Below, piece by piece: positions 1-56,100 of a stretch of DNA of 64,000 nt. The notes beneath the pieces are model-generated. The model searched no databases and was not told the DNA's origin. It worked only from the letters and a program-made list of their open reading frames with translations. Every line of letters begins with the position of its first letter. The stretch's first letter is position 1. Location of the stretch: IMG/VR virus record IMGVR_UViG_3300002835_000041, positions 54,982-118,981 of that record; one strand, given 5' to 3'. Both the position numbers and the translations under genes were made by a program. This DNA comes from a virus.

Positions 1-2
1 AC

Positions 3-266
3 AAGATGAATGAGCATGCAGATACTACGGGGGATTTTGCAGCAATATACTATATTAACGATGACTATGAAGGAGGAGAAATAAACTTTACAGATCATAA
101 TCTTAAGATTAAGCCAAAGTCTAATAGTCTTATTACATTTCCCAGCAATGAAAACTACTGGCACGAAGTTCTTGAAAATACTGTAAAAGAAAGATACTCC
201 TCTACTCTATGGTTTACAATTGAAGGATCTAGCCGTGTAAGACCCGAAAGTGGACTGGTCAGATGA
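3..266 (+). CDS. 2-oxoglutarate/Fe(II) oxygenase, 5' truncated by window edge
   Basis: This is the C-terminal half of a prolyl-4-hydroxylase-like dioxygenase; the reading frame is open to the window edge, so the gene starts outside. Visible are the iron-binding H-A-D triad start (HADTTG), the conserved YxxDDYEGGE strand, the distal His (YWHEV) and a Arg-Tyr near the end that normally binds 2-oxoglutarate. The same block occurs in the proteins at 6637-8064 and 8335-8946. The family hydroxylates proline or other side chains in proteins. Its stop overlaps the next gene by ATGA. The family call is firm; the substrate is unknown. Confidence 0.85.
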   Translation, partial: KMNEHADTTGDFAAIYYINDDYEGGEINFTDHNLKIKPKSNSLITFPSNENYWHEVLENTVKERYSSTLWFTIEGSSRVRPESGLVR

Positions 267-6636: not shown

Positions 6637-8064
6637 TTAAACAAAATCAAACCACAGTGGCATAATATATCTTGATCCATTTGCAGGAGCAACATGATAC
6701 CAGTAGTGAATATTTCCAGGGAATAGAACTAAATCGCCAGCCTTGGGCTTAAATGATACACCTTGATGAATAAAAGACAACTCTCCACCATCGTAATCGT
6801 CATTAAGATATACCCATCCTGCTAAATGGTTTGAATCTTTATGTCCTAAGTCGTCTATTGGAATTACTGGACTATTATTATGCACCCATTCAGCAAAACG
6901 AGAGTTTCTTGGCTTTAGTTTAACACCATACTCTTCTTCCACCAAAGATTTTATTTGAGGTATATATCTTTCTGAATAGTCTAGTGAGTCGTAATAAAGT
7001 AAAGACAAGGTAGGCTTTCCAGCGCTATCAGGCTGTAGAGGACGATTATTGCTTGTCTCTGTACCCTTGATTAGTTCTATAATGTTGTTGCACTCTTCTT
7101 TACTTAGATAGTTACTAAAGATTTTTACATTATTAGGATTGTTTCCAATCTTAGTAAAGTTTTCTATAGTAAGTTCAGATATTACCACCTTCTTTTGTTC
7201 TGGGATAACTATGTTATTAAAATCTTTTACTAATTCTAGCAACTTGCTAATGTCTTCTTGATCGGTATGTATCATAAAATCATATATTCCAAATTGTTCA
7301 GACAACTGTCTTATTTGTCTAACAACATCAACCATAGGTCCTTTAACATGGTGATGCTGCTTTCTTACTGGTGCATTTTTATCGTATCTAACATTTTGCT
7401 CTTCGTCGGGATGATTTATAATTAGAGGATCGATAATAACTATTGGCTTTACTCTACTAAGATCAATCTTTTTAAATTGATCTCTAAATAGTAAGTTATC
7501 ATCTACATAAATATACTCACAATGCTTGTTTGCTATTTCAATAGTAGTGTCTGAAGAACCAACAACAGCCATATGTGTCTTATGTTGGTGCGTTTTCATC
7601 AAATCCATAACCTTATCCATCCAGACTGCAGAGATAGCAACTCTTTTTTCAAGAGTATCTATTAGTGATGGATCGTGCATATAGTGTTCTAGAACTATTC
7701 TTTCTGCAGGACCATTTCCTTCATCTCCCCATCTTCCAGCAACAAGGTTTACACCAATTCTTCCAGGAGCAAATCGGTTTAATGTTTCACAAATTTTAGC
7801 AGCATAGTCAGGGCTTGTTCCGTATGCTGGCAAAGCAATTGTCATAATTAGTTGGTTTGTTTTTTGTAGCGCTTCTTGTATAACTAAGGAAAAGTCTATG
7901 CCTCCTGGACCGTAAGGAAGCAAAACAGATTTTACATTAGCATCATCTAGTTCTGTGGCCATCTTAAGGATTCCATTAAGATCTAGGTTTTCAATACTGT
8001 CATTTATCTGCCAGTGCCTTCTCCACATCCAGTGAAATGTTATGGGCTTATTTATATTATCCAT
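6637..8064 (-). CDS. luciferase-like flavin monooxygenase fused to 2-oxoglutarate oxygenase
   Basis: Residues about 1-290 match the bacterial luciferase/alkanesulfonate monooxygenase fold: start ITFHWMWRR, then LLPYGPGGIDF, and the diagnostic RIGVNLVAGRWGDEG with a following HYMHD. Residues about 297-475 are a prolyl-hydroxylase-like Fe(II) oxygenase with H-K-D (LGHKDSNHLAGW), YLNDDYDGGELSF, the distal His in HYWYHV and Arg in SRYIMPLWF. Both halves look intact, giving two different O2-activating centres in one chain. The start overlaps the end of the upstream gene by 8 bases. The substrate is unknown. Confidence 0.85.
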   Translation of the reverse strand: MDNINKPITFHWMWRRHWQINDSIENLDLNGILKMATELDDANVKSVLLPYGPGGIDFSLVIQEALQKTNQLIMTIALPAYGTSPDYAAKICETLNRFAPGRIGVNLVAGRWGDEGNGPAERIVLEHYMHDPSLIDTLEKRVAISAVWMDKVMDLMKTHQHKTHMAVVGSSDTTIEIANKHCEYIYVDDNLLFRDQFKKIDLSRVKPIVIIDPLIINHPDEEQNVRYDKNAPVRKQHHHVKGPMVDVVRQIRQLSEQFGIYDFMIHTDQEDISKLLELVKDFNNIVIPEQKKVVISELTIENFTKIGNNPNNVKIFSNYLSKEECNNIIELIKGTETSNNRPLQPDSAGKPTLSLLYYDSLDYSERYIPQIKSLVEEEYGVKLKPRNSRFAEWVHNNSPVIPIDDLGHKDSNHLAGWVYLNDDYDGGELSFIHQGVSFKPKAGDLVLFPGNIHYWYHVAPANGSRYIMPLWFDFV

Positions 8065-8334: not shown

Positions 8335-8946
8335 CTATGGGATTGTAAACCAAATTGGCACGGTATATCTTACACCAGACAGGACTTCTTTTACTTCATG
8401 GGCATAGTACATATTTCCAGGGAACATAATGAGGTCACCAATCTTAGGCTTAATAGTAACATCGTGTGTTGCAAAACTTAGTTCCCCACCCTCATAGTCA
8501 TCATTAAGATATATAAGTGTAGGTAGGTGGTTGTCCGTTACCCATCCGAGATCGTCAACATGTAGGGCTAGTTTGGTACCCTTGTCCCATCTTGCAATGT
8601 TAAGATAGTCAAGATCTTTCTTCTTTATATTTTCATGGTTATATGCTTTTTTAACTTCATCTAAAACTCTACCGAATATGTTATATTTATCTATAACGCC
8701 CTGATAGTTGTGAATCCATGCAACAGGATTATCTTTGTCGTCTTTTTGAGAAACAAAACTAATTCTTCTAGTTTCTTGAATATGGCTAAGAAGATAGTCA
8801 ATCTCTTCAGAAGAAAGAAAATTTGGTATAACTTTTATGTTGTCTGCAGAATTGCCGATTTTTTGAAAAAATTCAAGATACGCTGGGGTTCTTTCGATTT
8901 CTCCTGGGTGGTTTCCCACTGCTTGATTGTTAACTATGTATGCCAT
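8335..8946 (-). CDS. 2-oxoglutarate/Fe(II) oxygenase (prolyl-4-hydroxylase-like)
   Basis: The preferred start is ATG 8946, 6 bases after TATAAT; a GTG 15 bases upstream lies within the promoter. The N-terminal half is the usual helical support (IPNFLSSEEIDYLLSHI). The core has HVD (KLALHVDDLGW), YLNDDYEGGELSF, the distal His in YYAHEV and the Arg in GVRYTVPIWF, a complete facial triad plus co-substrate residue. It is closely similar to the C-terminal half of 6637-8064 and to the truncated gene at the window start. Confidence 0.87.
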   Translation of the reverse strand: MAYIVNNQAVGNHPGEIERTPAYLEFFQKIGNSADNIKVIPNFLSSEEIDYLLSHIQETRRISFVSQKDDKDNPVAWIHNYQGVIDKYNIFGRVLDEVKKAYNHENIKKKDLDYLNIARWDKGTKLALHVDDLGWVTDNHLPTLIYLNDDYEGGELSFATHDVTIKPKIGDLIMFPGNMYYAHEVKEVLSGVRYTVPIWFTIP

Positions 8947-9028
8947 ATAACCATTATACACTACGAAAAAATCTTTAAAGTTCGGCGCAAAATAGAAGTT
9001 ATAAACCTCTATATGCCCTATACGGGCA

Positions 9029-25487: not shown

Positions 25488-25591
25488 TGTTTATTTTTTT
25501 TATAGTATGTATCATACATCTGGACAAAATATTCAGATTTTAGGCTATTTGGTTTTTATAATTTTTCAGATCCGTGGTGTATACTAAAGTT

Positions 25592-26758
25592 ATGTTGCCT
25601 CCAGACGCTCCTGAACTATTTATGCTTTTAAAGAAAGCAACAAAAGGAAACCCATCTGTCAGCATAAATTCAGAAAGCATATTTTTTGCATTTACCAATA
25701 AGGCAGTGGAAGATGTTGCTCTAAACAAATACAACAGTTTTGAAAAAAGCGGTAGACTAAAAGCATTAGACTATGTCCTGGGTGAAGGTCTTATAACCAG
25801 TGAAGAACCTAAGCATATGCACAACAAGAAAGAAATATCTCCAACATTCCACAACGATCATATGGTCGAATATGAAAATAGAATATCTACAATCATAGAC
25901 TCTTTACTTTCTAACTGGTCTGACGAAGTAGATGTTAGAAGGGAAATGGGGTTTTTCGTTTTCAAAAGTATCCTAGAAATATTTTTTTCAGAAAGCATGG
26001 ACGAGTATTTCACGGAAGCAAGAGAAAACGTATCTACAGCATCATATAAAATTGCTAACAGTGTGTACGATGACGAACTGCTTAAGTCAAGAGATGAGTT
26101 AAGAGAGTTTTCTAAAAAAATAGTAGACAAAAGATTAGAGTCTAAAGAAATAAAAAATGATTTTTTAGATATCATCATCAATTCGTACAATAATAAAAAA
26201 ATAGATCTTGACGATCTGTACGACGAAGCAATAACTATGCTATTGGTTGGATATGAAACAACTGCATTTGCATTGGAGTGGGCAGTCTACTATTTGTCGA
26301 TAAATAAAAATTGGCAAGAAAAAATTTCTAGAGAAGAAAATGTTGATGCTTTTATTAATGAGGTTTTGAGAATGTCTCCTCCTATTTGGAATGAATCCAG
26401 GGTAGCGATGGAAGATGTAGAAATAGACGGAGTAATCATACCTACTGGCACACATGTAATGCTAAGTTCTTTGGCCGTACATAGAAACAAAGATGTTTTT
26501 GAAGATCCAGACACCTTTAAACCAGAAAGATGGTTTGGTAATCTAGATTTGTCAAAAGGAGAATATTTTCCATTTTTGTTTGGCAAAAGACAGTGCATCG
26601 GCAAAGAGTTTGCTTTAATGGAAATGAGAATAATGTTAACCAAAATTGCTAAAAAATTCACGGTAGATTTAGCAAGCAATCACACAGGACATACTGCAAC
26701 AATATCCTATAGGCCTAAAGATCCTATTATCATACGTGTCAAAGCAATTGGTGTATAA
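25592..26758 (+). CDS. cytochrome P450
   Basis: The ATG at 25592 is preferred because TATACT (25580-25585) lies 6 bases before it; GTG 25574 is an in-frame alternative inside the promoter. All core P450 motifs are intact: the I-helix oxygen-activating VGYETT (residues about 219-224), the K-helix EVLR (about 257), the FKPERWFG region, and the haem loop FLFGKRQCIG with the thiolate Cys near 335. At 388 residues it is full-length for a soluble bacterial P450. No ferredoxin or reductase gene is seen nearby, so electrons must come from the host or an unrecognised partner. Viral P450s are rare. The substrate is unknown; the next gene, a Cys-tailed peptide, is a candidate. Confidence 0.95.
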   Translation: MLPPDAPELFMLLKKATKGNPSVSINSESIFFAFTNKAVEDVALNKYNSFEKSGRLKALDYVLGEGLITSEEPKHMHNKKEISPTFHNDHMVEYENRISTIIDSLLSNWSDEVDVRREMGFFVFKSILEIFFSESMDEYFTEARENVSTASYKIANSVYDDELLKSRDELREFSKKIVDKRLESKEIKNDFLDIIINSYNNKKIDLDDLYDEAITMLLVGYETTAFALEWAVYYLSINKNWQEKISREENVDAFINEVLRMSPPIWNESRVAMEDVEIDGVIIPTGTHVMLSSLAVHRNKDVFEDPDTFKPERWFGNLDLSKGEYFPFLFGKRQCIGKEFALMEMRIMLTKIAKKFTVDLASNHTGHTATISYRPKDPIIIRVKAIGV

Positions 26759-27177: not shown

Positions 27178-28146
27178 CTAAAGCCAAGGGCCAACTATAT
27201 GATCGTGTTGGTCACTTAGTGAAATTTCAGATTCTTTTTGAAATTTTTCGTATAGTTCATATGAACCTATTCCGTAGACACCCAGAGATGTATCCCCAGA
27301 TAATATTTTTGCAGCCCTAAAGTAGGAATCTTTATTCATATCTCCCCACTCGGAGTGATCTTGCCAATGAAGAACCCTTTTGTCGCTATCATAGTTTTCA
27401 TTATAAGCATGCCACATATAGTGAAACGATGGATTAATTAGTTTAACTCCCCTGGTGTAAAACCTCAAGGCCAGAGTTGGCTCTTCGCCAATAAAATACA
27501 GTTCTTTATCGTACGGTATTTCTTTTATAATCTTTGACTCACAAAACAAAGAGTTAGCACATAAAAAATATGCTTCATATCCATATTTAAAATAATCGCA
27601 CTCGTACCAAAATGGCTGAGGCATGGTGTCTTCATCTTTCCACCCCATAGCCCCTCTCATTGGCACTTTTTCAAAATCGTAGAACTCTTCTATTCCAGTT
27701 TCGTGATCTCTTCTAAATCCTTCTGGGTGCATAGTAAACGCAATCTCAGATTGCCAGTAATCTTTACAGGCGACATAGTTTTCTGTTACTACTTTATCCC
27801 AATCATCAATAAATCTAGAATGGGAGTCTATCTGTAAAAAATAATCAGTATGTATATCCCTAGAGACAATCTCCCTAGCCCAGCATGCGCCTCTACTTTC
27901 AGAAAAATGGTATTTCACATATCTGATTTGAGACTCTGGTATAAAAGACAAATCAGGATGTTCAGATTCATCGGCTTGAGAAACAATTGAAAAAAATAGT
28001 CTATCTCTATACTTTGCATTATAGTATGCGCTAGTTACTGTATTTACAAGATCAGGATCTCTATAACTTGCAATTGAAATAAAAATTGTTTTTGATTTTG
28101 ATGGAACAAAGCGACTAGCAATTAAAGGTACGTTAATCAATTCCAA
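27178..28146 (-). CDS. GlcNAc-transferase of the Skp1-hydroxyproline type
   Basis: The 322-residue protein matches the family that includes the eukaryotic Skp1-hydroxyproline N-acetylglucosaminyltransferase: start TIFISIASYRDPDLVNTV, the metal/nucleotide motif YFLQIDSHSRFIDDWD, RGAMGWKDED, FIGEEPTLALRFYTRG and PSFHYMWHAY. It is a GT-A fold enzyme using a UDP-sugar. The start appears to be TTG, overlapping the stop of the upstream gene. In eukaryotes it acts after a prolyl-4-hydroxylase, and this phage encodes several such oxygenases. The acceptor here is not known. Confidence 0.82.
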   Translation of the reverse strand: MELINVPLIASRFVPSKSKTIFISIASYRDPDLVNTVTSAYYNAKYRDRLFFSIVSQADESEHPDLSFIPESQIRYVKYHFSESRGACWAREIVSRDIHTDYFLQIDSHSRFIDDWDKVVTENYVACKDYWQSEIAFTMHPEGFRRDHETGIEEFYDFEKVPMRGAMGWKDEDTMPQPFWYECDYFKYGYEAYFLCANSLFCESKIIKEIPYDKELYFIGEEPTLALRFYTRGVKLINPSFHYMWHAYNENYDSDKRVLHWQDHSEWGDMNKDSYFRAAKILSGDTSLGVYGIGSYELYEKFQKESEISLSDQHDHIVGPWL

Positions 28147-29949: not shown

Positions 29950-30681
29950 ATGGCTGCTTCTAAATCAATGGACTTTCCTAGTGCAAAAAAATCTAGTTAT
30001 GCTGCACAAGTAGAACAAAGCCAAACATCTAACTATCAAGAAAATACATTGTCTTTTCTTCCAGTTCCTGGACCACAAGGACCGCAAGGACCAGCAGGTA
30101 AAGATGGAAAAGATGGCTTGCCTGGCCCAGCAGGTCCAGAAGGACAAAGGGGACCAAAAGGAGAAAAAGGACAATCTGGACAAAACGGACTAAGTTCTTT
30201 ATCGTCTTCAGGACAGCAGGCTGGTTGGGCATCTTACACAAACAGCATTAATAAACCAATAAAACTTGGAATATCCCAGGGTGACGATGGATGGGTTACA
30301 TTGTTGCTAGATACAAAAGATAAAACTCAAAATGAAGTCTACATTCCAAAAGGATGTACTAGTCTTTGGAACAGTCATCAGAGAGCCCTAAACTTCCACG
30401 GCATCAAAGAAGGATCCCAAGTGTTCGTAACATATAACTTTGAACTAACCACATATACTTCTAATACTGAGGTTTGGCTAAGGACATATTTTGCAAGCAA
30501 GGGGCAAGAGTTTGTTAACTTTGTTGGTTCCCTTAAATATCAAAACACATACAACCTTTCAGTTACTCAAAATATATTTATTGAGAATCAGTCTATGTGG
30601 GGCAATGGGGCAGTTCCTCAAATACGAACAGACTTTGATGCATCGGTAATACTCAATTCTGTATATGTCAGCGTGGTATAA
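29950..30681 (+). CDS. collagen-like fibre protein
   Basis: Residues about 39-80 form 14 consecutive Gly-X-Y triplets (GPQGPQGPAGKDGKDG, GLPGPAGPEG, GPKGEKG), a collagen-like triple-helix region that would trimerise the chain. The N-terminus is Ser/Gln-rich and the C-terminal 150 residues are a beta-rich globular domain (IKLGISQGDDGWVTLLLD). GATAAT lies 6 bases before the ATG. Phage collagen-like repeats usually occur in fibres. Proline in the Y position (GLP) is the canonical prolyl-hydroxylase target, of interest given the oxygenases in this genome. Confidence 0.88.
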   Translation: MAASKSMDFPSAKKSSYAAQVEQSQTSNYQENTLSFLPVPGPQGPQGPAGKDGKDGLPGPAGPEGQRGPKGEKGQSGQNGLSSLSSSGQQAGWASYTNSINKPIKLGISQGDDGWVTLLLDTKDKTQNEVYIPKGCTSLWNSHQRALNFHGIKEGSQVFVTYNFELTTYTSNTEVWLRTYFASKGQEFVNFVGSLKYQNTYNLSVTQNIFIENQSMWGNGAVPQIRTDFDASVILNSVYVSVV

Positions 30682-32089: not shown

Positions 32090-34753
32090 ATGGCAGCAGA
32101 GAATATTGATGGTACTATCAATGGTACTGGCCTGTTCCCTGCAAAAATACCTGGTCTTTCAGATGCAGCCGATATTCAGGCAGCGCTAAGACTTTATCAC
32201 TACGGATCATATACCTATGACGGTGCTAACACAAATGAAGCAACCTTGCTTGCAAACCCATCTGTTGCAGCACATCTACAAACTCTTAAAAATGCTGATG
32301 CAGCAGAAGTAACAAACAGAAATGCTGCAATTGCTGTAGAAACAACAAATAGAAATACTGCAATTACAACACACAATGCAGCAACAACAAATGTTCACGG
32401 AATAGCAAATACAGCAAACCTTGCAACACAGCAATTTGTAGCAACTGCAGTTACAACTGCAATAAGCGGTGCTACTGGAGGATATCCTGCTCTTGCAGGA
32501 GATGCTATTGATTGGAACTCTGTTGACGCAAGATTTGATGTTGTTCCACAACTTGCAAATGTTGGAACAGTTATAACAAAAACAGAAAACTTTATCTTAT
32601 CACCCGATGATGTTGGAAAGACTGCTATTTTGTATTCTTCTAACCCAATAGTTGTGACTCTTCCAGCAAACGCTTTAGTAGAAATTCCAGTGGGATATTC
32701 AATTGATATAATTCAAACAGGCACTGGTTCAGTAACTGTATCTGAAGGCAGTGACGCTGTTTCAATTAATAGCAAGGCTGGAATAAAATCTCTAGATGGA
32801 CAATATTCAAAAGGTACTCTGGTTAAAATAGACACCAATACATGGTTTTTTTTTGGAAACTTACTTAACGTAGTAGTTCCAACACCTGTTCCAACACCTG
32901 TAGCACCAGTTCCAGTTCCAACACCTGCAGTAGTTCCTGTTGCACCAACACCAATAGTTTCTCCAGTTGCCCCTGTTGTTCAGCCAACTGCTCCAACACC
33001 AATAGTTTCTCCAGTTGTTCAACCTACAACTCCAGTTGCTCAAACACCTACTCTTGCAACCCCATCACTTTCTGTAAGTATGGGACCAGACGGATTTAAT
33101 GGTGCAGTTTATGCAAATGTTACAGTAACAAATCATAGTAATGATAATACATACACATCAAATCTTGGAACACAAAACCCTGAGTTCCCAGAAGAATTTA
33201 ATATTTCTGGATTAACTAGTGGTCAATCTTACACAGTTTATATAACTGCATCTCGTTCTGGATATACAAGTGCTCAAGGATCTATAACCTTTACCGCAAA
33301 TGCAGTGGCTCCAACACCTGTAGCAACTCCAACAAGTCCAGTTGCTCCTGTTCCTGCAGTTGCTCCTGTTACTCCAACTGCTCAACCTAACTACTATGTT
33401 TTCACATATTATGACGGAAAATGTAACTACATAGTGTATGATTTCCTTGATAATGAAATAGGAACATACTCAACAAATCTTTGTACAAATTCTGGAACAG
33501 ATGCTTCTGGGGCAACTCTTCCAAGTTGTAGTAATTCAGGTTGTGTTTCTACTACACCAGTTGCTCCTGTACCAGCACCAACACCAGCACCAACTCCTAC
33601 GGTAATTGTTGCACCAGGAACAGTTTATTTATCATATTGTGATCCTCAAGGTGGGCCACAAGTTGAATCATATGCAATTAATGCAGACAACATTCTTTCT
33701 ACAAATATTAATACTGCATGTGCAACATACTATGATGTCTTAAGTTACGCAGGAGCAACAAATATTCAGTGCTCTACTGCTTCATCGCCTGGAGCCCCAT
33801 CATGTGGAACCGCCCCAGCACCGACACCAGTTGCTGCTCCAGTTGCTCCTGTAGCACCAGTTCCAGTACCAGTTGCGCCTACACCAGTTCCAGCAGTACA
33901 GACTTCTACAATTTATCACGCAGTATGCTTTAGTGATGGCGGTACAAGCAATGACTCAAGCACAGTTCCAAATATGCTTTATTCCGATTGTACAACTTAC
34001 CGAGCATTTGTACTAAGTATTGATCCAGGAGCATCTATAAATTGTTCTGCTTCAGGGCCAGTTTCTTTACCAGGATGTGTTGCACCTACACCAGCACCAA
34101 CACCTGTAGTACCTGTAGCGCCAGTTCCAGCACCAGTTGCTCCTGTAGCGCCAGTTCCAGCACCAACAGCACTAACATGTCCAAACAATGACACCTATGG
34201 AGTTACAAGTGGAGGAGTCTACAGTGGTTCTTGCCCTGATGGTTCATGTCCAGGATGTAGCAATTACCAAGAGAAGTGGTACAAGTGCTCTGATGGAAGT
34301 TCAGGAACTAAGTTCTATGTAGGTCTTGGATGTAGCACACCTGTAGCACCTGCACCTGTTGCACCTGCACCTGTTGCACCTGCACCTGTTGCACCTAGCC
34401 CTGCTCCTACTGCAGCACTAGACTGTACAGCGTGTACTGGATATAGCGGACTTGCAGGAACAGAAGTACAAGACTGTTCTGATGGATGCGGAACTAGAAC
34501 ATTGTGTAGAACGCCTCTAGGATGTGCCAACTACTACTTAAATGAATGTCCAGGTTGTGCTGCTCCTACACCAGTTGCTCCTACACCTGCTGCTGCGACA
34601 CCTACAGCGTCTTCACCAACAGCATGCGTTGCAAACTGCGTATTTGATGGTTATACCTGTAATGGATGGGCAGCAACATATACTTATATTAACTATGGAT
34701 GTGGAGGAGCAAGTGCTTGCCCTCCTTATACCGATAATTTTGGTTGTGCATAA
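32090..34753 (+). CDS. large Pro-rich fibre with Cys modules
   Basis: The 887-residue protein has an N-terminal fibre-type helical region (residues about 1-135), a beta domain ending FFFGNLLNVV (as in 45678-47480), then repeated linkers of Ala-Pro, Thr-Pro, Val-Pro and Ser-Pro (PTPVAPVPVPTPAVVPVAPT and at least six later blocks). The linkers alternate with an FnIII-like domain (about 320-405) and at least four Cys-containing modules (CDPQGGP, CSDGSSG, CTACTGYSG, CANYYLNEC). The linkers resemble plant arabinogalactan-type glycomodules, where proline is hydroxylated and glycosylated. The oxygenase, glycosyltransferase and epimerase genes follow directly. Confidence 0.8.
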   Translation: MAAENIDGTINGTGLFPAKIPGLSDAADIQAALRLYHYGSYTYDGANTNEATLLANPSVAAHLQTLKNADAAEVTNRNAAIAVETTNRNTAITTHNAATTNVHGIANTANLATQQFVATAVTTAISGATGGYPALAGDAIDWNSVDARFDVVPQLANVGTVITKTENFILSPDDVGKTAILYSSNPIVVTLPANALVEIPVGYSIDIIQTGTGSVTVSEGSDAVSINSKAGIKSLDGQYSKGTLVKIDTNTWFFFGNLLNVVVPTPVPTPVAPVPVPTPAVVPVAPTPIVSPVAPVVQPTAPTPIVSPVVQPTTPVAQTPTLATPSLSVSMGPDGFNGAVYANVTVTNHSNDNTYTSNLGTQNPEFPEEFNISGLTSGQSYTVYITASRSGYTSAQGSITFTANAVAPTPVATPTSPVAPVPAVAPVTPTAQPNYYVFTYYDGKCNYIVYDFLDNEIGTYSTNLCTNSGTDASGATLPSCSNSGCVSTTPVAPVPAPTPAPTPTVIVAPGTVYLSYCDPQGGPQVESYAINADNILSTNINTACATYYDVLSYAGATNIQCSTASSPGAPSCGTAPAPTPVAAPVAPVAPVPVPVAPTPVPAVQTSTIYHAVCFSDGGTSNDSSTVPNMLYSDCTTYRAFVLSIDPGASINCSASGPVSLPGCVAPTPAPTPVVPVAPVPAPVAPVAPVPAPTALTCPNNDTYGVTSGGVYSGSCPDGSCPGCSNYQEKWYKCSDGSSGTKFYVGLGCSTPVAPAPVAPAPVAPAPVAPSPAPTAALDCTACTGYSGLAGTEVQDCSDGCGTRTLCRTPLGCANYYLNECPGCAAPTPVAPTPAAATPTASSPTACVANCVFDGYTCNGWAATYTYINYGCGGASACPPYTDNFGCA

Positions 34754-34790
34754 AAATGCAATATGATATACTATATTAAAAGGAGAAAAA

Positions 34791-35168
34791 ATGCAATTTA
34801 AATTAAATGCTGAAGACGAAGTCATTGATTTTATTTATATAGAGACAGACACTGAGACAGGTTTGCCAGTAAGAGATACAGATGTTTTGGTATTTAATTC
34901 ACTATCTTCTAGTCCATCTGTTGTAGAAATAACTGATTTAGAATATAATCCAGAGCAGGGCTCTATTTGGAACGGTAAAGATTTTATAGATCCAGAAAAT
35001 AGAGAACCAAGACCTCTTGCTAAAAAAGATGATGGTTTTAGAAAGTTTGCATTTATTGTAGACAACGAATATAAGTTTTTCTATGGTGTTGCAGATACAC
35101 CAGAAAACGGAATGAAGATTGCAATTCTTTCTAGCAATCCACAAGTTACAATTGGAGAGGAAATATAA
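34791..35168 (+). CDS. hypothetical protein (125 aa)
   Basis: AAAAGGAG precedes the ATG. The acidic alpha/beta protein begins MQFKLNAEDEVIDFIYIETD. One-base overlap with the next gene. No family recognised; could be a fibre chaperone by position. Confidence 0.6.
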   Translation: MQFKLNAEDEVIDFIYIETDTETGLPVRDTDVLVFNSLSSSPSVVEITDLEYNPEQGSIWNGKDFIDPENREPRPLAKKDDGFRKFAFIVDNEYKFFYGVADTPENGMKIAILSSNPQVTIGEEI

Positions 35169-35407
35169 TGGAAGAGAATCTATCGCCACTGCAAAAATAC
35201 AAGCAGATGCTTGGAGATACAAGACCTTGGGATGTTGTAAATCCAAATACTGAGTGGGCAGATGAAGAAGTAGCAAAAGAAAGATTTTCCATCTGTAAAG
35301 GATGTCCAGAATTAATTAAACTAACTAGTCAATGTAAAAAGTGTGGCTGCCTTATGAAAGTAAAAACAAAATTAGAAAAAGCGGTTTGCCCACTAGGAAA
35401 GTGGTAA
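35168..35407 (+). CDS. zinc-binding small protein, DUF6171-like (79 aa)
   Basis: The motif ICKGCPELIKLTSQCKKCGC, then AVCPLGKW, matches a small zinc-binding family common in T4-like and marine phages, tentatively DUF6171. It sits between the fibre and the oxygenase. Confidence 0.65.
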   Translation: MEENLSPLQKYKQMLGDTRPWDVVNPNTEWADEEVAKERFSICKGCPELIKLTSQCKKCGCLMKVKTKLEKAVCPLGKW

Positions 35408-35408
35408 A

Positions 35409-35999
35409 ATGAAACCAGCATACCTGTTAAAGACAGTTTTTCCACCAGAAGAGCATTTGGCTTTACAAAATCTTGCAATGAATCTTTGGTCAACAGACAA
35501 AAGCACGTATGATAGAGGTTTTGGAAGACATCAATGGACAATTTGGGATAATACTCACGGTCCTGCAATTGAGCCATTAAGAAGATTTCACGAAATGCTT
35601 TTACCATTAGCAAGAGAAGAGTTTGAATCAGAAACTCTTGTGCCATCTTGGTGCCTATTAAGTATTTATGAGGGAAAAGAAGCAAAATTATGGAAGCATG
35701 TAGATGATAACGCTTGCACATACCATATAAACTATACAATTTTTCATAAAACACCTTGGGACTTTTATGTAGAAGGTGAAAAATTTCAGGCAGAAGAAAA
35801 TGATGCAGTTATTTCTTATGGTAATGATCAGTTACATTGGAGGGAAGAATTTCCAGATCCAGAACACAATCTAGTTGCTAATGCATTCTTTTTTTATACA
35901 GAGCCAGATCATTGGTTCTTTAAGCATGGTCCACAATATCTATATACTGATATTCGTAAACCAGTTGAAGGCAAAGAAACAATAAAAGAAACTATGTAA
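35409..35999 (+). CDS. 2-oxoglutarate/Fe(II) oxygenase-like protein
   Basis: A double-stranded beta-helix dioxygenase is suggested by LWKHVDDNACTYHINYTIF (HxD), WDFYVEGEKF, and a distal His in NDQLHWREEF. The 2-oxoglutarate-binding basic residue is less clear than in the minus-strand paralogues, so the family is more distant. Directly after a Pro-rich fibre and before an O-fucosyltransferase-like enzyme, it may hydroxylate that fibre. Confidence 0.7.
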   Translation: MKPAYLLKTVFPPEEHLALQNLAMNLWSTDKSTYDRGFGRHQWTIWDNTHGPAIEPLRRFHEMLLPLAREEFESETLVPSWCLLSIYEGKEAKLWKHVDDNACTYHINYTIFHKTPWDFYVEGEKFQAEENDAVISYGNDQLHWREEFPDPEHNLVANAFFFYTEPDHWFFKHGPQYLYTDIRKPVEGKETIKETM

Positions 36000-37031
36000 A
36001 TGAATAAATTATTCTTTCAGTTATATAATCCTACAGGTTTAATAAATCAGGTAATGAGCCTTGAGTTGGCAGCAGGGTTATCTCATGAACTAAATGTTCC
36101 AGTCATTATGCACTATGGAAGATATACAGCAGACCCAAAACTTTATTTTACTGATACAATTCCAATTTTTAGTCCAAGCAGGTTTTATAATGAACAAAGA
36201 AAAGGTTTTACAAACGATAACCAATTTCCTCACTTGCTAGACCTTATGGATTTTGATCAAAACATAATTATAATTGATGAAAAAATAGATCACTTTGAAC
36301 AAGAAGAACTAGTTATTGATGATATTATGAATAATTTTTATTATAGTAATCAACCAGAAATAACTGGAGATGAGTTTCTTTTTGCAGAAGGAAGAAAAAG
36401 ACTTCCACTAGATAAAACACTTCATTTAAAATTGACTCTCGGCTGGTACTCAAGATTTTTTTATAAAAGAAGTGATAGCCTAAACAAAGCAATATCTTCA
36501 GTCAGATTTAAAAAAGAGTATGTAGATTTAGCAAACAAAATATATCACTCTATCGGAGAATTTCAAGGAATGCACTTAAGATTATCGGATCACATAAAGA
36601 TGTTTGAAACAAAACAAGAAATGTTTGAGTCATGGCTAGATAAATTTGCACAGAATAATCTTCCTGTAGTTTTATCAACTTGTGAGCCAGGACATAAAAT
36701 GGTACAAGATAATAAGCATAGGTTTATACTGTTAGATGAATATATTGTGCATAATTTTAGAGATGAATTTATGGCTTTGCCATTTCAGGATGAAGTAGTT
36801 TTTGGACTTATATGTAACTTGGTAATGCATAATGCTACAAACTTTGTTGGAACATCTGGAAGCACATATACTGCCTATATTCATAGAAATAGAAATCAAA
36901 AAGGAATTGAGACTTGGGACTTTTTTGACAACCCACCAAAGACAACATCAACTCGTTACTCTTGGAATGGATCTTCTTTAGAGAATGGCAGAAAAATGTG
37001 GTGGAGAGAATGGCCAGAATCAAAATGTTAA
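36000..37031 (+). CDS. O-fucosyltransferase-like glycosyltransferase
   Basis: The 343-residue protein has the GT-B hallmarks of protein O-fucosyltransferases and relatives: an N-terminal NPTGLINQVMSLELAAGLS (the N-x-R/x-NQ region), the conserved central FQGMHLRLSDH (H-x-R-x-x-D) near residue 189, and a late DEVVFGLICNLVMHNATNF followed by TSGSTYTAYIHRNR. Known members use GDP-L-fucose. Two genes downstream lies a GDP-mannose 3,5-epimerase whose product, GDP-L-galactose, differs from GDP-L-fucose only by a 6-hydroxyl. It starts one base after the oxygenase stop. Confidence 0.65.
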   Translation: MNKLFFQLYNPTGLINQVMSLELAAGLSHELNVPVIMHYGRYTADPKLYFTDTIPIFSPSRFYNEQRKGFTNDNQFPHLLDLMDFDQNIIIIDEKIDHFEQEELVIDDIMNNFYYSNQPEITGDEFLFAEGRKRLPLDKTLHLKLTLGWYSRFFYKRSDSLNKAISSVRFKKEYVDLANKIYHSIGEFQGMHLRLSDHIKMFETKQEMFESWLDKFAQNNLPVVLSTCEPGHKMVQDNKHRFILLDEYIVHNFRDEFMALPFQDEVVFGLICNLVMHNATNFVGTSGSTYTAYIHRNRNQKGIETWDFFDNPPKTTSTRYSWNGSSLENGRKMWWREWPESKC

Positions 37032-37102
37032 AAAGAATTTTTTATAAGTTTAAAATGTGGCGTAAGTATAAAAAAATAAAAAAGGGTAAGTTTATTTACT
37101 AA
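37025..37102 (+). CDS. basic microprotein (25 aa)
   Basis: The highly basic MLKRIFYKFKMWRKYKKIKK overlaps the stop of the glycosyltransferase and the start of the SGNH gene (TAATG), so it is translationally coupled. Possibly just a coupling peptide. Confidence 0.4.
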   Translation: MLKRIFYKFKMWRKYKKIKKGKFIY

Positions 37103-38040
37103 TGCTTTTTGATATGTTTAATCCTAGAGTTATTCCTCATATGGGTATTGATAAAACACAACCAAAAAAGGATTATTCTCATACTACTGAAATATTGGCA
37201 GGGCATTCAGAAGTACCAAGACCAGAATACAATTATAAATGGAATAGCGATAACCTAAGATCCATAGAGTTTGCGACAAAGCCACCAATAGTAGCCCTAG
37301 GTTGCTCTATAACGCTTGGCCAAGGACTTCCAGAACATCTTAGGTGGACCGACCTTCTATCTAATCGTATTGGGGTCCCTATAGGAAATATATCTTATTC
37401 TGGAGCATCTGCAAACAAGTTGGTTTCTAGTTTTTTAGGAATGATTCATCAATATCAATATAAGCCAGAGATTGTTATTGCTCATTTTGCAAACTTTGAA
37501 AGATTTTATTTTGTTAGCCCAGACGGGGAAAGAATGCAGGAGTGGTTTATTAATCATAGTGCAAAAAAAACAAAAGCATCAGCACCTTGGAACTATGAAG
37601 AGATTTTGCCATATGAGTGGGTTTATTATCAAAATCTAGATCATATTAAAATGCTAGAAGCATTCTGTGAGGCAAGCGGAATTAAACTGTACTGGTCTTC
37701 TTGGTCACACGGAATGACAGATGAACAAGAACAATTCTTAAAAGACAACTTTAGGCATTATGTTTCAGACACAACAAAGAAAGAGTTTCCAGCAGACTTT
37801 GAACTTGGTTTTGTTGCAAACAGTGTGCCTGAACTTACCAAGCATTTTGAGATGATAAATTGGCAAGGGTGCCATCATGGATGGAAAGACATGTACCCAG
37901 AAATATTTGACTATGGCTATGACTACCACAAAATTGCATATGACTATGGAAGACTAAAGGGGCCTGGAGCGCACTGGCCACACCCTGGGCTACATAAGCA
38001 GTTGCATATTTCTGAGTTTTGGGAAAAACTAATATCCTAA
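37102..38040 (+). CDS. SGNH/GDSL-type hydrolase, second copy
   Basis: Block I ALGCSITLGQGLPE, block II NISYSGASANKL and block V AHWPHPGLHKQLH give the Ser and His of an SGNH esterase/acyltransferase. It aligns with 4665-5690 over most of its length (both also share IKLYW and RWTDLL/RWTNFL). Within a glycosyltransferase cluster it may add or remove acyl groups on the virion glycan. Confidence 0.75.
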   Translation: MLFDMFNPRVIPHMGIDKTQPKKDYSHTTEILAGHSEVPRPEYNYKWNSDNLRSIEFATKPPIVALGCSITLGQGLPEHLRWTDLLSNRIGVPIGNISYSGASANKLVSSFLGMIHQYQYKPEIVIAHFANFERFYFVSPDGERMQEWFINHSAKKTKASAPWNYEEILPYEWVYYQNLDHIKMLEAFCEASGIKLYWSSWSHGMTDEQEQFLKDNFRHYVSDTTKKEFPADFELGFVANSVPELTKHFEMINWQGCHHGWKDMYPEIFDYGYDYHKIAYDYGRLKGPGAHWPHPGLHKQLHISEFWEKLIS

Positions 38041-38090
38041 ATATTTTAAAATAGGGATATATACTTTAAGTGAGAGAATTGTGAGATAGT

Positions 38091-39122
38091 ATGAAAACAG
38101 CATTAGTCCTTGGAGCAGGTGGCTTTATCGGTAGCCACATGGTTAATAGACTTAAGTCAGAAGGATACTGGGTTAGAGGTGTTGATCTAAAGCATCCTGA
38201 TTTTTCTAACACACAGGCAGACGAGTTCATTGAAAGAGATCTGTCCGTTTATGAAAATGTTGAAAAGGCAATTCAGTTTAAAGGATATCAAGGAAACTTT
38301 TATAGCGAAATACCATATAAGTTAATTACTAGTTTTGATGAGATTTATCAATTTGCTGCAGATATGGGTGGCGCTGGATATATATTTACTGGAGAACACG
38401 ATTCCCAGATTATGGAAAACTCTGCACTTATAAACCTTAACTTGCTTAGGGCACAATCAAGACTAAACGCAAAATATGATATTAATAAAACCAAAATATT
38501 TTATTCAAGTTCTGCCTGTATGTATCCTGACTATAAGCAGTTGGATGTTAATAATCCTGGATTAAAAGAGTCTGACGCATACCCTGCCGATCCTGACAGC
38601 GAGTATGGCTGGGAAAAATTGTTTAGTGAAAGAATGTTCTTAGCCTTTAATAAAAACAACAGAATTCCCGTAGCGATTGCCAGATATCACAACATCTATG
38701 GACCAGAAGGAACTTGGGATGGTGGAAAAGAAAAGGCTCCTGCAGCAATGTGTCGAAAAGTTATACAGTCAGATGGCTTTATAGAAATTTGGGGGGATGG
38801 AGAACAAACCCGTTCATTCCTATATATAGATGAATGCATAGAAGCAACAAGAAGACTTATGAAATCAGACTTTACTGGTCCTGTTAATATTGGATCTGAA
38901 GAAATGGTTACTATCAACCAGTTGGTAGATATTGCTTGCAGTATTGAGGGCAAGGTTTTGAGCAAGATGCATATCCCTGGACCTTTGGGAGTTAGAGGAA
39001 GAAATTCTAATAATGACTTGGTAAGAGAAAAACTAGGCTGGGATTACTCAATGTCTCTTAAAGACGGAATTGAAAAAACCTACAACTGGATACTTCAGGA
39101 AACAAAAAAGAACCCCTCCTAA
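38091..39122 (+). CDS. GDP-mannose 3,5-epimerase-like enzyme
   Basis: The 343-residue SDR enzyme shows the NAD loop GAGGFIGSH, the SSACMYP motif (Cys143 equals the catalytic Cys of plant GDP-mannose 3,5-epimerase), YGWEK (Tyr/Lys pair), RYHNIYGPEGTWDGGKEKAP (catalytic Lys215), WGDGEQTRSFLYIDEC and GPLGVRGRNSNN. These are specific to GDP-mannose 3,5-epimerase, which makes GDP-L-galactose. It supplies an activated L-sugar and its nearest transferase is the GT at 36000-37031. The gene ends at a bidirectional terminator. Confidence 0.88.
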   Translation: MKTALVLGAGGFIGSHMVNRLKSEGYWVRGVDLKHPDFSNTQADEFIERDLSVYENVEKAIQFKGYQGNFYSEIPYKLITSFDEIYQFAADMGGAGYIFTGEHDSQIMENSALINLNLLRAQSRLNAKYDINKTKIFYSSSACMYPDYKQLDVNNPGLKESDAYPADPDSEYGWEKLFSERMFLAFNKNNRIPVAIARYHNIYGPEGTWDGGKEKAPAAMCRKVIQSDGFIEIWGDGEQTRSFLYIDECIEATRRLMKSDFTGPVNIGSEEMVTINQLVDIACSIEGKVLSKMHIPGPLGVRGRNSNNDLVREKLGWDYSMSLKDGIEKTYNWILQETKKNPS

Positions 39123-53129: not shown

Positions 53130-56100
53130 ATGTCTACTTCATCAAACCTATATGCAGAAAAAGTCTTTGCTGAGCACCCTATTGGTCTCTGGGCACTTGA
53201 TGATAATGCAGACTATATTTCTTTAATTTCTAACGAGCAAAGAGTATTATCCTCTATTCCAAGGTGGGAGATCTTCGGTGGTACAGTTGCTGCGTATCCA
53301 GAGTCTGTGGGAGAGCCATTTCCTGGAAGTTATGTGGGAAGGATCATAGCAGATCCAACACCCGATAGGAAAAATGCCTCAGTAACGCTAAGAAGCAAAG
53401 ACACTTTTAGTTCTTCTATTTTAAATAAATATCTAAGAACTTTCTCTCTTGGCACATATATCTATTCAGAAAGTTCGTATGTCTCTGGTTTTGAAATTGG
53501 GTATCAGTATACAGATACGACAAGCGGTCAAGAGATAAGCCATTTAAAGAATTTTGACACAGTAATAAATAATAGTTGGATTTTTATATCAGAAACGTTT
53601 GACATTCCTGAAGATGCCCTTGAAATTAAACTTGTTATTAAGATTAATTTTGTAGGAAACGTAGAAAAAGAAAATGCATTTAAAATAAACGGAATAACTT
53701 TTGGCCAGTGGTCAGAAGAGTTTGCATCAACATCCCTGGGAACTATTCCAGAAAATATTCCATCAAACATATCTATTGCTCCACAAAAGGGAATAGTTGC
53801 AAAATGTTACGGACTTCAGGAGTTAAATGCATACTACCTTGCTTCTGACAATATGTTAAAAGCAAAAAATTCTGGAATACCCCTAGTATATGGAACTTCT
53901 GGACATACAACCTTGTATGAAAATATTGGTCTTCCATCTTTGATTGTTCCTGGACTTGGAATGTTAAATAAGGATGGACAGTACAAGCAGTACACTCTAG
54001 AAATGTGGCTAAGGATAAATTCTTATTCCAATGAAACCAAAAGAATCATTGGACCCATAGCATCTTCTGACGGAATATATGTAGATGGTCCAGCAATAGG
54101 TTTAAAAATTGGAAATGAATATAAGACTAACTATATTGGTGAGTGGACAAGGCCAATGCTTGTTCATTTAAAAGTTGGAAAAGACAGCGCCTCCCTTTTG
54201 ATTAATGGAGAAGAGGTAATATCTATTCCTTACTCTCAATCACTGGCAAACCTTCCATCAAAACTTAACAATACAAAAGATCAAGACTGGATTGGTTTTT
54301 ATGCTTACGAAGATATTTCTCCTATAGATCTAGACTGCGTTGGAATTTACCCGTACCTAGTTCCCAACCAAGTCGCAAAAAGAAGGTATGTATTTGGTCA
54401 AGGTGTCGAGATTCCAGAAAACATTAATTCGTCATATAGTGGAACATCTGTTACGATTGATTATTCGTTTGCAGACTATACAGCAAACTACTCTTATCCA
54501 AAAACAGGTTCTTGGAATCAGGGATTTAGCGACAACATAGACGCATCAAACAGATCACTTTCTGTAATGTCTCATCCACTTCCACAGGTTGTACTTTCAT
54601 CTAAAACAAAGTCAGAACTATTTGAAGACAATAAGGTCTCTAATCGTATAGAAGATACAGCAAGTTTCTTTTATGACACAAAAGATTATTTTTCTTTTAA
54701 GCCAAACAACTCTTGGGACTCTGTCTCTGGCTACCTTTTCTTTGAAAACTTTGATGTTTTAAAGACACCAATATCAGCATTCTATGGGTGCTTCCAGTTA
54801 AAGGGTAATGCAACAACTCCACAAATACTTTTTAAAATTGAAAAAGAAAACACATCTAATTATTTTAAAATACAGGTAGAAAACAATACATTAAAATATA
54901 TTATTAGTTCAAATGGTAAAACTGAAACTCTGTATTCTTCTGAAGTACTAAATCAAAATGAATTTTTTGAAGTAGGCGTAAATATTCCTAGGTTTATAGA
55001 AGTTTTTGGAAATCCTGTTTCAGGGTTTTTTGGATCATTGGGAGACCTGAGAATGTATGTTGGTGGAGATAAAACTAATACAGCAACATTTAATGGCAAG
55101 ATCTATAATATTGGGTTTGCAACAAAGTATAATTTTCAAAAAATTAAAAGTTTGTTTAATGAAATAGGAGTTCCAAAACTAAATGAAGATTTGTTCTTTG
55201 CTTATCAAAATAATCAACTGATAGATATTGATGCTGGCATTGACACCACTTCTTTGCCACCCTATGGAGGTTTAACCGATGTCTCTCCAGGAGCAATATC
55301 TGGAGGAGGGGTAATACTTTTAGAGGAAGATTTTTTGATTGAACATACAGCAAGTTATACCCTGGTCCCAGACATTTTGTTTGACAAGTACACTCTTGCT
55401 ATTGCAGCAAATGCCTACTGGGAAGACAATCTTCCTTTAACATATTTTGCAGAATCTGTTTTTGATAAAAGAGGAGATAAGTATTTTGACCTTGATTTTA
55501 TTCAGTTTAATGTTAACTACCCAATTCCAACAAAAACAATTGCTATAGAGACTGATCCAGTAGAATGGACATACCAAGAACTTAATGATCAGTATGGTTC
55601 TCCAGTACAAAGAACATATGAGTCACTAGATAATTATTTGTTTACTGGGTATAACGATTATGAAGATTTAAAAAACAAAATCTCAAAAGATTATAAATAT
55701 AATACTGACGGCTCACTTGTGAAAACGTACATAACCTTTCAATATACTGAACTAGGAGCCAACGCAGTTTCAGAATATTTTACTAAATTAGAAAGGCCTG
55801 CAAGAAATGGTGTTTTAATTCCAGGTGTAGATTGGATGACAACAAAGTACGAGGTTGTAGACAACATGATTATCTATCCTCCTTCTGGAGTTGATTTTAA
55901 TGACTTGTCAATCGTAACACATATAGACATAAATATAAAAAATTCTGAAGTAAACAATGTAAGTATTAAAAATGTTTCCTATGCATCACAAGCACTAAAC
56001 GACTCCAACGCCAGCCCAATTGGTACAAGATTTGGAACTTCTATATACCCTTATACAAAAACTGGAATTTATTATAATTTTAAGAAAAATAATCCATTTT

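Follow-up and report, generated by a model that had tools for sequence, protein, structure and literature searches.

The window analysed here is a 64,000-nucleotide stretch that forms the final 64 kb of virus record IMGVR_UViG_3300002835_000041 (118,981 bases in total). It holds, at 32090-39122, a candidate cassette for modifying the phage's own fibre, in which the five open reading frames (ORFs) named in the initial annotation are all intact and lie on the plus strand in a single run. The portal protein is nearest to those of Streptomyces phages of ~130 kb (47% identity), which makes an actinobacterium the probable host; several related IMG/VR contigs are, judging from their sample numbers, presumably of freshwater origin. 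The region encodes:

32090-34753, plus strand: virion fibre of 887 amino acids, whose Cys-containing modules are separated by seven AP/TP/VP-rich linker blocks; proposed substrate
34791-35168, plus strand: ORF of 125 amino acids between fibre and cassette, present in some relatives but not all
35168-35407, plus strand: Cys-rich (CxxC) protein of 79 amino acids that accompanies the oxygenase in nearly all relatives; missing from the initial annotation
35409-35999, plus strand: 2-oxoglutarate (2OG)/Fe(II) oxygenase-fold protein, from alignment, AlphaFold and Foldseek; proposed linker hydroxylase
36000-37031, plus strand: glycosyltransferase of the fucosyltransferase superfamily (POFUT/NodZ fold), from predicted structure; proposed to decorate the linkers with L-galactose or a different GDP-L-sugar
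37102-38040, plus strand: SGNH-like protein, from the motifs GCSxT and HPGxH only; possible glycan acyl-esterase or acyltransferase
38091-39122, plus strand: GDP-mannose 3,5-epimerase, predicted to convert GDP-mannose to GDP-L-galactose

Fibre linkers and cassette enzymes

The initial annotation described a fibre with Ala-Pro, Thr-Pro and Val-Pro linkers, and comparison with 1000 composition shuffles bears this out. The fibre contains 105 prolines and 80 (A/T/V/S)P dipeptides, compared with 45.9 (s.d. 4.7, maximum 59) in the shuffles; PxP motifs number 35 versus 12.2, and the densest 60 residues hold 18 (A/T/V/S)P dipeptides versus at most 11. Chance proline richness is ruled out by these shuffles. 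Dense linker blocks occur at residues ~256-320, 401-435, 481-515, 561-610, 656-700, 746-780 and 821-845, forming the clustered, non-contiguous X-Pro (XP) repeats that define arabinogalactan-protein and extensin modules, and a PHROG tail-fibre profile matches residues 165-262 (E = 3.7e-5). Among homologous loci (L numbers, among them loci found by searches with the transferase, the oxygenase or a conserved tail-region protein), the fibres at L171:2399-5389 and L190:3603-5903 end, behind the linker region, in what by eye resembles a Hint/intein-type autoprocessing domain.

The product of 35409-35999 has no match in a Pfam search and no significant match in a PDB sequence profile search. Its AlphaFold model (mean predicted local distance difference test, 89.7) matches the 2OG oxygenases AlkB, PHD2/EGLN1 and Pseudomonas putida prolyl 4-hydroxylase (P4H) in Foldseek with E = 1e-7 and a template modelling (TM) score of ~0.6. 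The predicted double-stranded beta-helix carries an HxD...H iron triad (H97, D99 and H143) that is invariant in 29 aligned sequences, in agreement with the 2OG oxygenase assignment made at the outset. Many related loci add a P4H-like enzyme (Pfam 2OG-FeII_Oxy_3, E = 2e-18) whose gene overlaps the oxygenase gene, and in this separate family the 2OG-anchoring residue is present in 107 of 163 members by a strict motif. A JmjC/cupin-type protein fills or shares the oxygenase slot at L154:7437-8072 and L048:5045-5569, adding a third type of oxygenase to the cassette. A search of genome contigs for a cellular origin of this 2OG oxygenase family matched a single contig from a metagenome-assembled genome.

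The start codon of the transferase gene follows immediately after the oxygenase stop codon. Pfam detects O-FucT with an E value of 0.025, short of the cut-off, and the best PDB matches of the predicted structure are GDP-fucose transferases, headed by POFUT2 and including POFUT1, NodZ, plant FUT1 and FUT8. All of the top 50 matches are fucosyltransferases (E = 3e-6 to 2e-4), with TM scores of only 0.34-0.48 by query length. The predicted GT-B fold and an HxRxxD-type donor motif with invariant H192, R194 and D197 agree with the O-fucosyltransferase-like enzyme first proposed. A search for OFucT among isolated phages gave no match.

Supply of GDP-L-galactose by the epimerase, part of the original proposal, is well supported by sequence comparison. 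The protein aligns over its full length with Arabidopsis GDP-mannose 3,5-epimerase (2c59, E = 1e-91), has the plant-like SDR fold, and retains catalytic C143, Y172xxxK176 and K215 invariantly in 17 relatives. The SGNH hydrolase label fared less well: both motifs of the 37102-38040 product are conserved across 17 relatives, but profile searches gave no significant PDB or Pfam match, so the name reflects a motif reading only.

Linker composition and oxygenase across related phages

The transferase search retrieved 71 further loci with a recurrent gene order of Cys-rich small gene, oxygenase, transferase, SGNH-like gene (in some) and epimerase. Nearly every locus with upstream sequence has a proline-rich ORF directly upstream of the cassette despite wholly changed ORF architecture, ranging from 887-amino-acid fibres to proteins of ~200 amino acids with 30% proline, and with repeats as varied as (TP)n, APVAP, VAPSP and IIATP. 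Divergent loci also add further transferase-like genes and O-carbamoyltransferases. Loci from the oxygenase search keep the fibre and oxygenase while exchanging the sugar module: some have a more distant fucosyltransferase (FUT) plus epimerase, some a GT60-family enzyme and no epimerase, and some another transferase with a nucleotidyltransferase. The epimerase is present in all 34 dereplicated FUT loci and absent from 17 of 18 loci with GT60 only, as expected if every transferase comes with genes that supply its own sugar nucleotide. GT60 genes in the sister-phage slot score 80-150 bits against PF11397 (cut-off 21), and the family includes N-acetylglucosamine transferases acting on Skp1 hydroxyproline as well as mucin-type Thr/Ser enzymes (PMC8724618).

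The oxygenase tracks the composition of the linkers. In a control set fetched with the conserved tail-region protein, ignoring cassette content, 43 dereplicated complete loci comprised 16 with both an XP-rich fibre and an oxygenase, 23 with neither and 2 + 2 of the mixed kinds (Fisher 8e-8); across all loci the counts are 59 with both, 2 and 2 mixed, and 23 with neither (Fisher 2e-16), Fisher values here taking no account of relatedness among loci. The four mixed loci are as follows: L154, XP-rich and scored oxygenase-negative, has the JmjC/cupin-type oxygenase; L162, also XP-rich, combines (TP)n linkers and GT60 with an empty oxygenase slot; and both L171 and L184 combine GT60 with Thr-rich linkers. 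A second lineage, whose tail proteins differ, has an XP-rich ORF together with an oxygenase in 29 of 37 loci, and those lacking the oxygenase have (TTTTAAP)n-like linkers with ~40% Thr plus a GT60 gene. After dereplication of both lineages, 93 of the 94 fibres whose linkers are proline-rich have an oxygenase next to them, compared with two of the seven whose linkers are Thr-rich and mucin-like (Fisher 1.6e-6); all seven of the latter have GT60. The conserved block consists of a linker-rich fibre, a Cys-rich small protein, at least one 2OG oxygenase and a sugar module, and within it oxygenase and linker chemistry co-vary.

Three further features of the window, the first two overlooked in the initial annotation, belong to this comparison:

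27178-28146, minus strand: GT60-family glycosyltransferase (Pfam GlcNAc, PF11397, E = 1e-31, 111 bits), whose sister-phage homologues take the position behind the oxygenase
8335-8961, minus strand: P4H-like oxygenase with a canonical HVD...H motif and R at +10, scoring 140 bits against a model built from sister-phage cassette P4Hs; possible prolyl hydroxylase at a distance
29950-30681: collagen-like ORF with Pro-carrying GXY repeats

The fibre gene is found 1.4 kb downstream of the collagen-like ORF, and the superfamily of the cassette enzyme includes the collagen P4Hs, so the collagen-like protein might be the oxygenase substrate in place of the XP linkers. Yet this ORF is present in all 62 testable first-lineage loci, with or without oxygenase, and in the same loci XP richness follows the oxygenase (46/0 versus 2/14). 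Moreover, second-lineage loci L035-L044 pair an XP ORF with the oxygenase and have no collagen-like ORF in the stretch covered. We reject the collagen-like neighbour as substrate for want of any tracking of the oxygenase, and consider this explanation very improbable.

Two explanations place the target outside the virion. The cassette could alter the host surface, through wall polysaccharide or superinfection exclusion, with its proximity to the fibre reflecting a variable island of host-interaction genes. Published annotations of cyanophages and actinophages assign genes of this sort to the cell wall or to superinfection (PMC9602691, PMC10202952), and some cassettes contain carbamoyltransferase, NTP-transferase and FkbM-like genes. 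Such a role does not predict that the oxygenase follows linker composition, nor that GT60 without oxygenase accompanies Thr-rich linkers, and we judge it improbable. Alternatively, the 2OG oxygenase might be an auxiliary metabolic gene that adjusts host 2-oxoglutarate or nitrogen metabolism, as predicted for cyanophage 2OG oxygenases (PMC9602691); this gives no reason for the strict position between XP fibre and sugar module or for the co-variation, and has in our view very little chance of being right.

A proposed pathway for fibre modification

We consider it very likely that the cassette modifies the adjacent fibre. The fuller account, in which it is a phage-encoded post-translational modification system working by the following steps, is in our assessment probable. 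In the cytoplasm of the infected cell, the 2OG oxygenase, alone or together with a separate P4H, would hydroxylate (A/T/V/S)P linker prolines, and the epimerase would convert host GDP-mannose to GDP-L-galactose. The fucosyltransferase-fold enzyme would then place that sugar on the hydroxylated linker, or on its Thr/Ser, and the SGNH-like protein may trim or acylate the glycan. The fibre stalk would thereby gain a sugar coat that is stiff, hydrophilic and variable, serving fibre mechanics or recognition. Confidence differs among the parts: proline hydroxylation is rather likely to take place, transfer of L-galactose has about an even chance of being correct, and hydroxyproline as the sugar acceptor is a more tentative assignment.

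The acceptor is where the closest competing explanation departs from this pathway. Here the enzymes still modify the fibre, but sugars sit on Thr and Ser of TP and SP linkers in a POFUT- or mucin-like manner, and the oxygenase has some different role on the linker, for example a hydroxylation that does no more than stiffen the polyproline helix. POFUT enzymes do use Ser/Thr acceptors, mucin-type Thr/Ser transferases occur within GT60, and Thr-rich linkers with GT60 are mostly oxygenase-free, L162 being an example. Against this, many XP linkers are poor in Thr and Ser, as in the (APVAP)n blocks of L048; the residue before proline is neither Thr nor Ser for 75 of the 105 prolines in the window fibre; and the oxygenase, which tracks proline-rich linkers, is not needed for Ser/Thr glycosylation alone. 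We regard this Thr/Ser explanation as unlikely.

Several observations weigh against proline-directed fibre modification by the cassette. The initial annotation made its proposal depend on catalytic residues in both enzyme folds, and the triad and donor motif are indeed invariant, but the 2OG anchor of P4Hs (R/K at distal His+9/10) is absent from 98 of 112 members of the window-type oxygenase family, including the window protein, which we accordingly do not class as a P4H. Further P4H-like genes of the phage sit far from the fibre, and aquatic phages in general hold many 2OG oxygenases without an assigned role. The main blemish in the association is that 8 of 13 loci with neither kind of linker have an oxygenase, a P4H-like gene near the anchor; three loci, L151, L167 and L190, have FUT and epimerase without oxygenase or XP-rich linkers. 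Shared ancestry may also explain part of the linker-oxygenase association, since a test of phylogenetically independent pairs, underpowered with four supported pairs, gave a mean of 3.6 concordant and 0 discordant (p = 0.125). The original idea that the phage decorates its own fibre linkers thus gains strong comparative support from co-variation, module swaps and the Thr-rich/GT60 pairing, but the window oxygenase lacks the canonical P4H anchor. Separately, the phage contigs of L244, L262, L277 and L294, with no XP-rich fibre in the slot, contain 6-8 P4H-like genes elsewhere.

A broader reading sees here the first pathway to hydroxyproline-linked glycoproteins in a bacterial virus, with plant-like fibre glycomodules in two large phage groups, L-galactose in this window, and a rule matching linker to enzyme: proline-rich linkers go with an oxygenase and any of several sugar modules, and threonine-rich linkers with GT60, usually without an oxygenase. 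This may hold, and we put it forward with some reserve.

Two observations extend the repertoire of the cassettes. At L162:7397-8602 a single reading frame joins the Cys-rich small protein to the GT60 transferase, a hint that the small protein acts together with the modifying enzymes, as an adaptor or substrate binder. Second-lineage cassettes contain a NodU/CmcH-type O-carbamoyltransferase (L036:7280-8719, L044:12885-14324), which suggests that their sugars are carbamoylated.

Known systems and further genes

The nearest counterpart is Skp1 glycosylation in protists, in which the prolyl 4-hydroxylase PhyA is followed by a GT60 N-acetylglucosamine transferase and then further sugars including fucose. 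Both systems couple a soluble P4H/PHD2-like oxygenase of the cytoplasm to a GT60 transferase, a pair that sister phages have beside an XP fibre. Whereas Skp1 modification concerns one proline in one regulatory protein and oxygen sensing, the phages have long repetitive fibre linkers and interchangeable sugar modules. Plant extensins and arabinogalactan proteins share with the phage AP/TP/VP/SP clusters, as well as two features proposed here, L-sugars and prolyl hydroxylation followed by O-glycosylation. No plant hydroxyproline transferase family appears among the Pfam matches of the phage proteins, which instead include a fucosyltransferase-fold enzyme and a plant-type epimerase, and the setting would be bacterial cytoplasm rather than endoplasmic reticulum and Golgi.

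Giant viruses hydroxylate and glycosylate their own structural proteins, as with Mimivirus collagen, and self-glycosylating mycobacteriophages exist. The present system differs from the lysines of collagen repeats in the former and the direct glycosylation of the latter in its proline-rich linkers and matched, swappable sugar-nucleotide genes. Cyanophages such as S-SCSM1, also aquatic, encode the same enzyme classes (2OG oxygenases, GDP-mannose 3,5-epimerase and O-fucosyltransferase), but these are read as metabolic or cell-wall genes, and linker-enzyme co-variation is not reported (PMC9602691). In S-SCSM1 four tandem 2OG oxygenase genes lie among tail-fibre genes (L378:12852-15466), which suggests that the fibre-modification idea may extend to cyanophages. 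The same study describes the function of aquatic-phage 2OG oxygenases as uninvestigated (PMC9602691), and transferases of freshwater actinophages have been explained as protecting DNA or excluding superinfection (PMC10202952). The initial annotation knew of no comparable phage system, and the literature we searched, which mostly leaves out subscription journals, contains no description of a phage cassette for linker-specific proline hydroxylation or glycosylation. The enzyme parts are already known from phages; their apparent combination into a linker-directed cassette had no precedent in the papers searched.

The fibre linkers offer a concrete candidate substrate for many aquatic-phage 2OG oxygenases. 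If the pathway operates as proposed, hydroxyproline-type protein glycosylation extends to bacterial viruses; the glycan may influence fibre stiffness, recognition and protease resistance, and the natural exchange of sugar modules behind one oxygenase could provide a parts set for making defined glycopeptides.

Further genes of note lie elsewhere in the phage. A cytochrome P450 gene near the GT60 gene (25574-26758, plus strand; Pfam E = 8e-57) occurs only in the closest relatives, L002-L008. The 475-amino-acid product of 6637-8064 (minus strand) appears to be an unusual fusion of a C-terminal 2OG oxygenase with an N-terminal part that by eye looks like a luciferase-like monooxygenase. At the left edge of the window (1-263, plus strand) a further P4H-like ORF is represented by its C-terminal end, and a second such ORF lies just ahead of the window, at 54424-55196 of the record.

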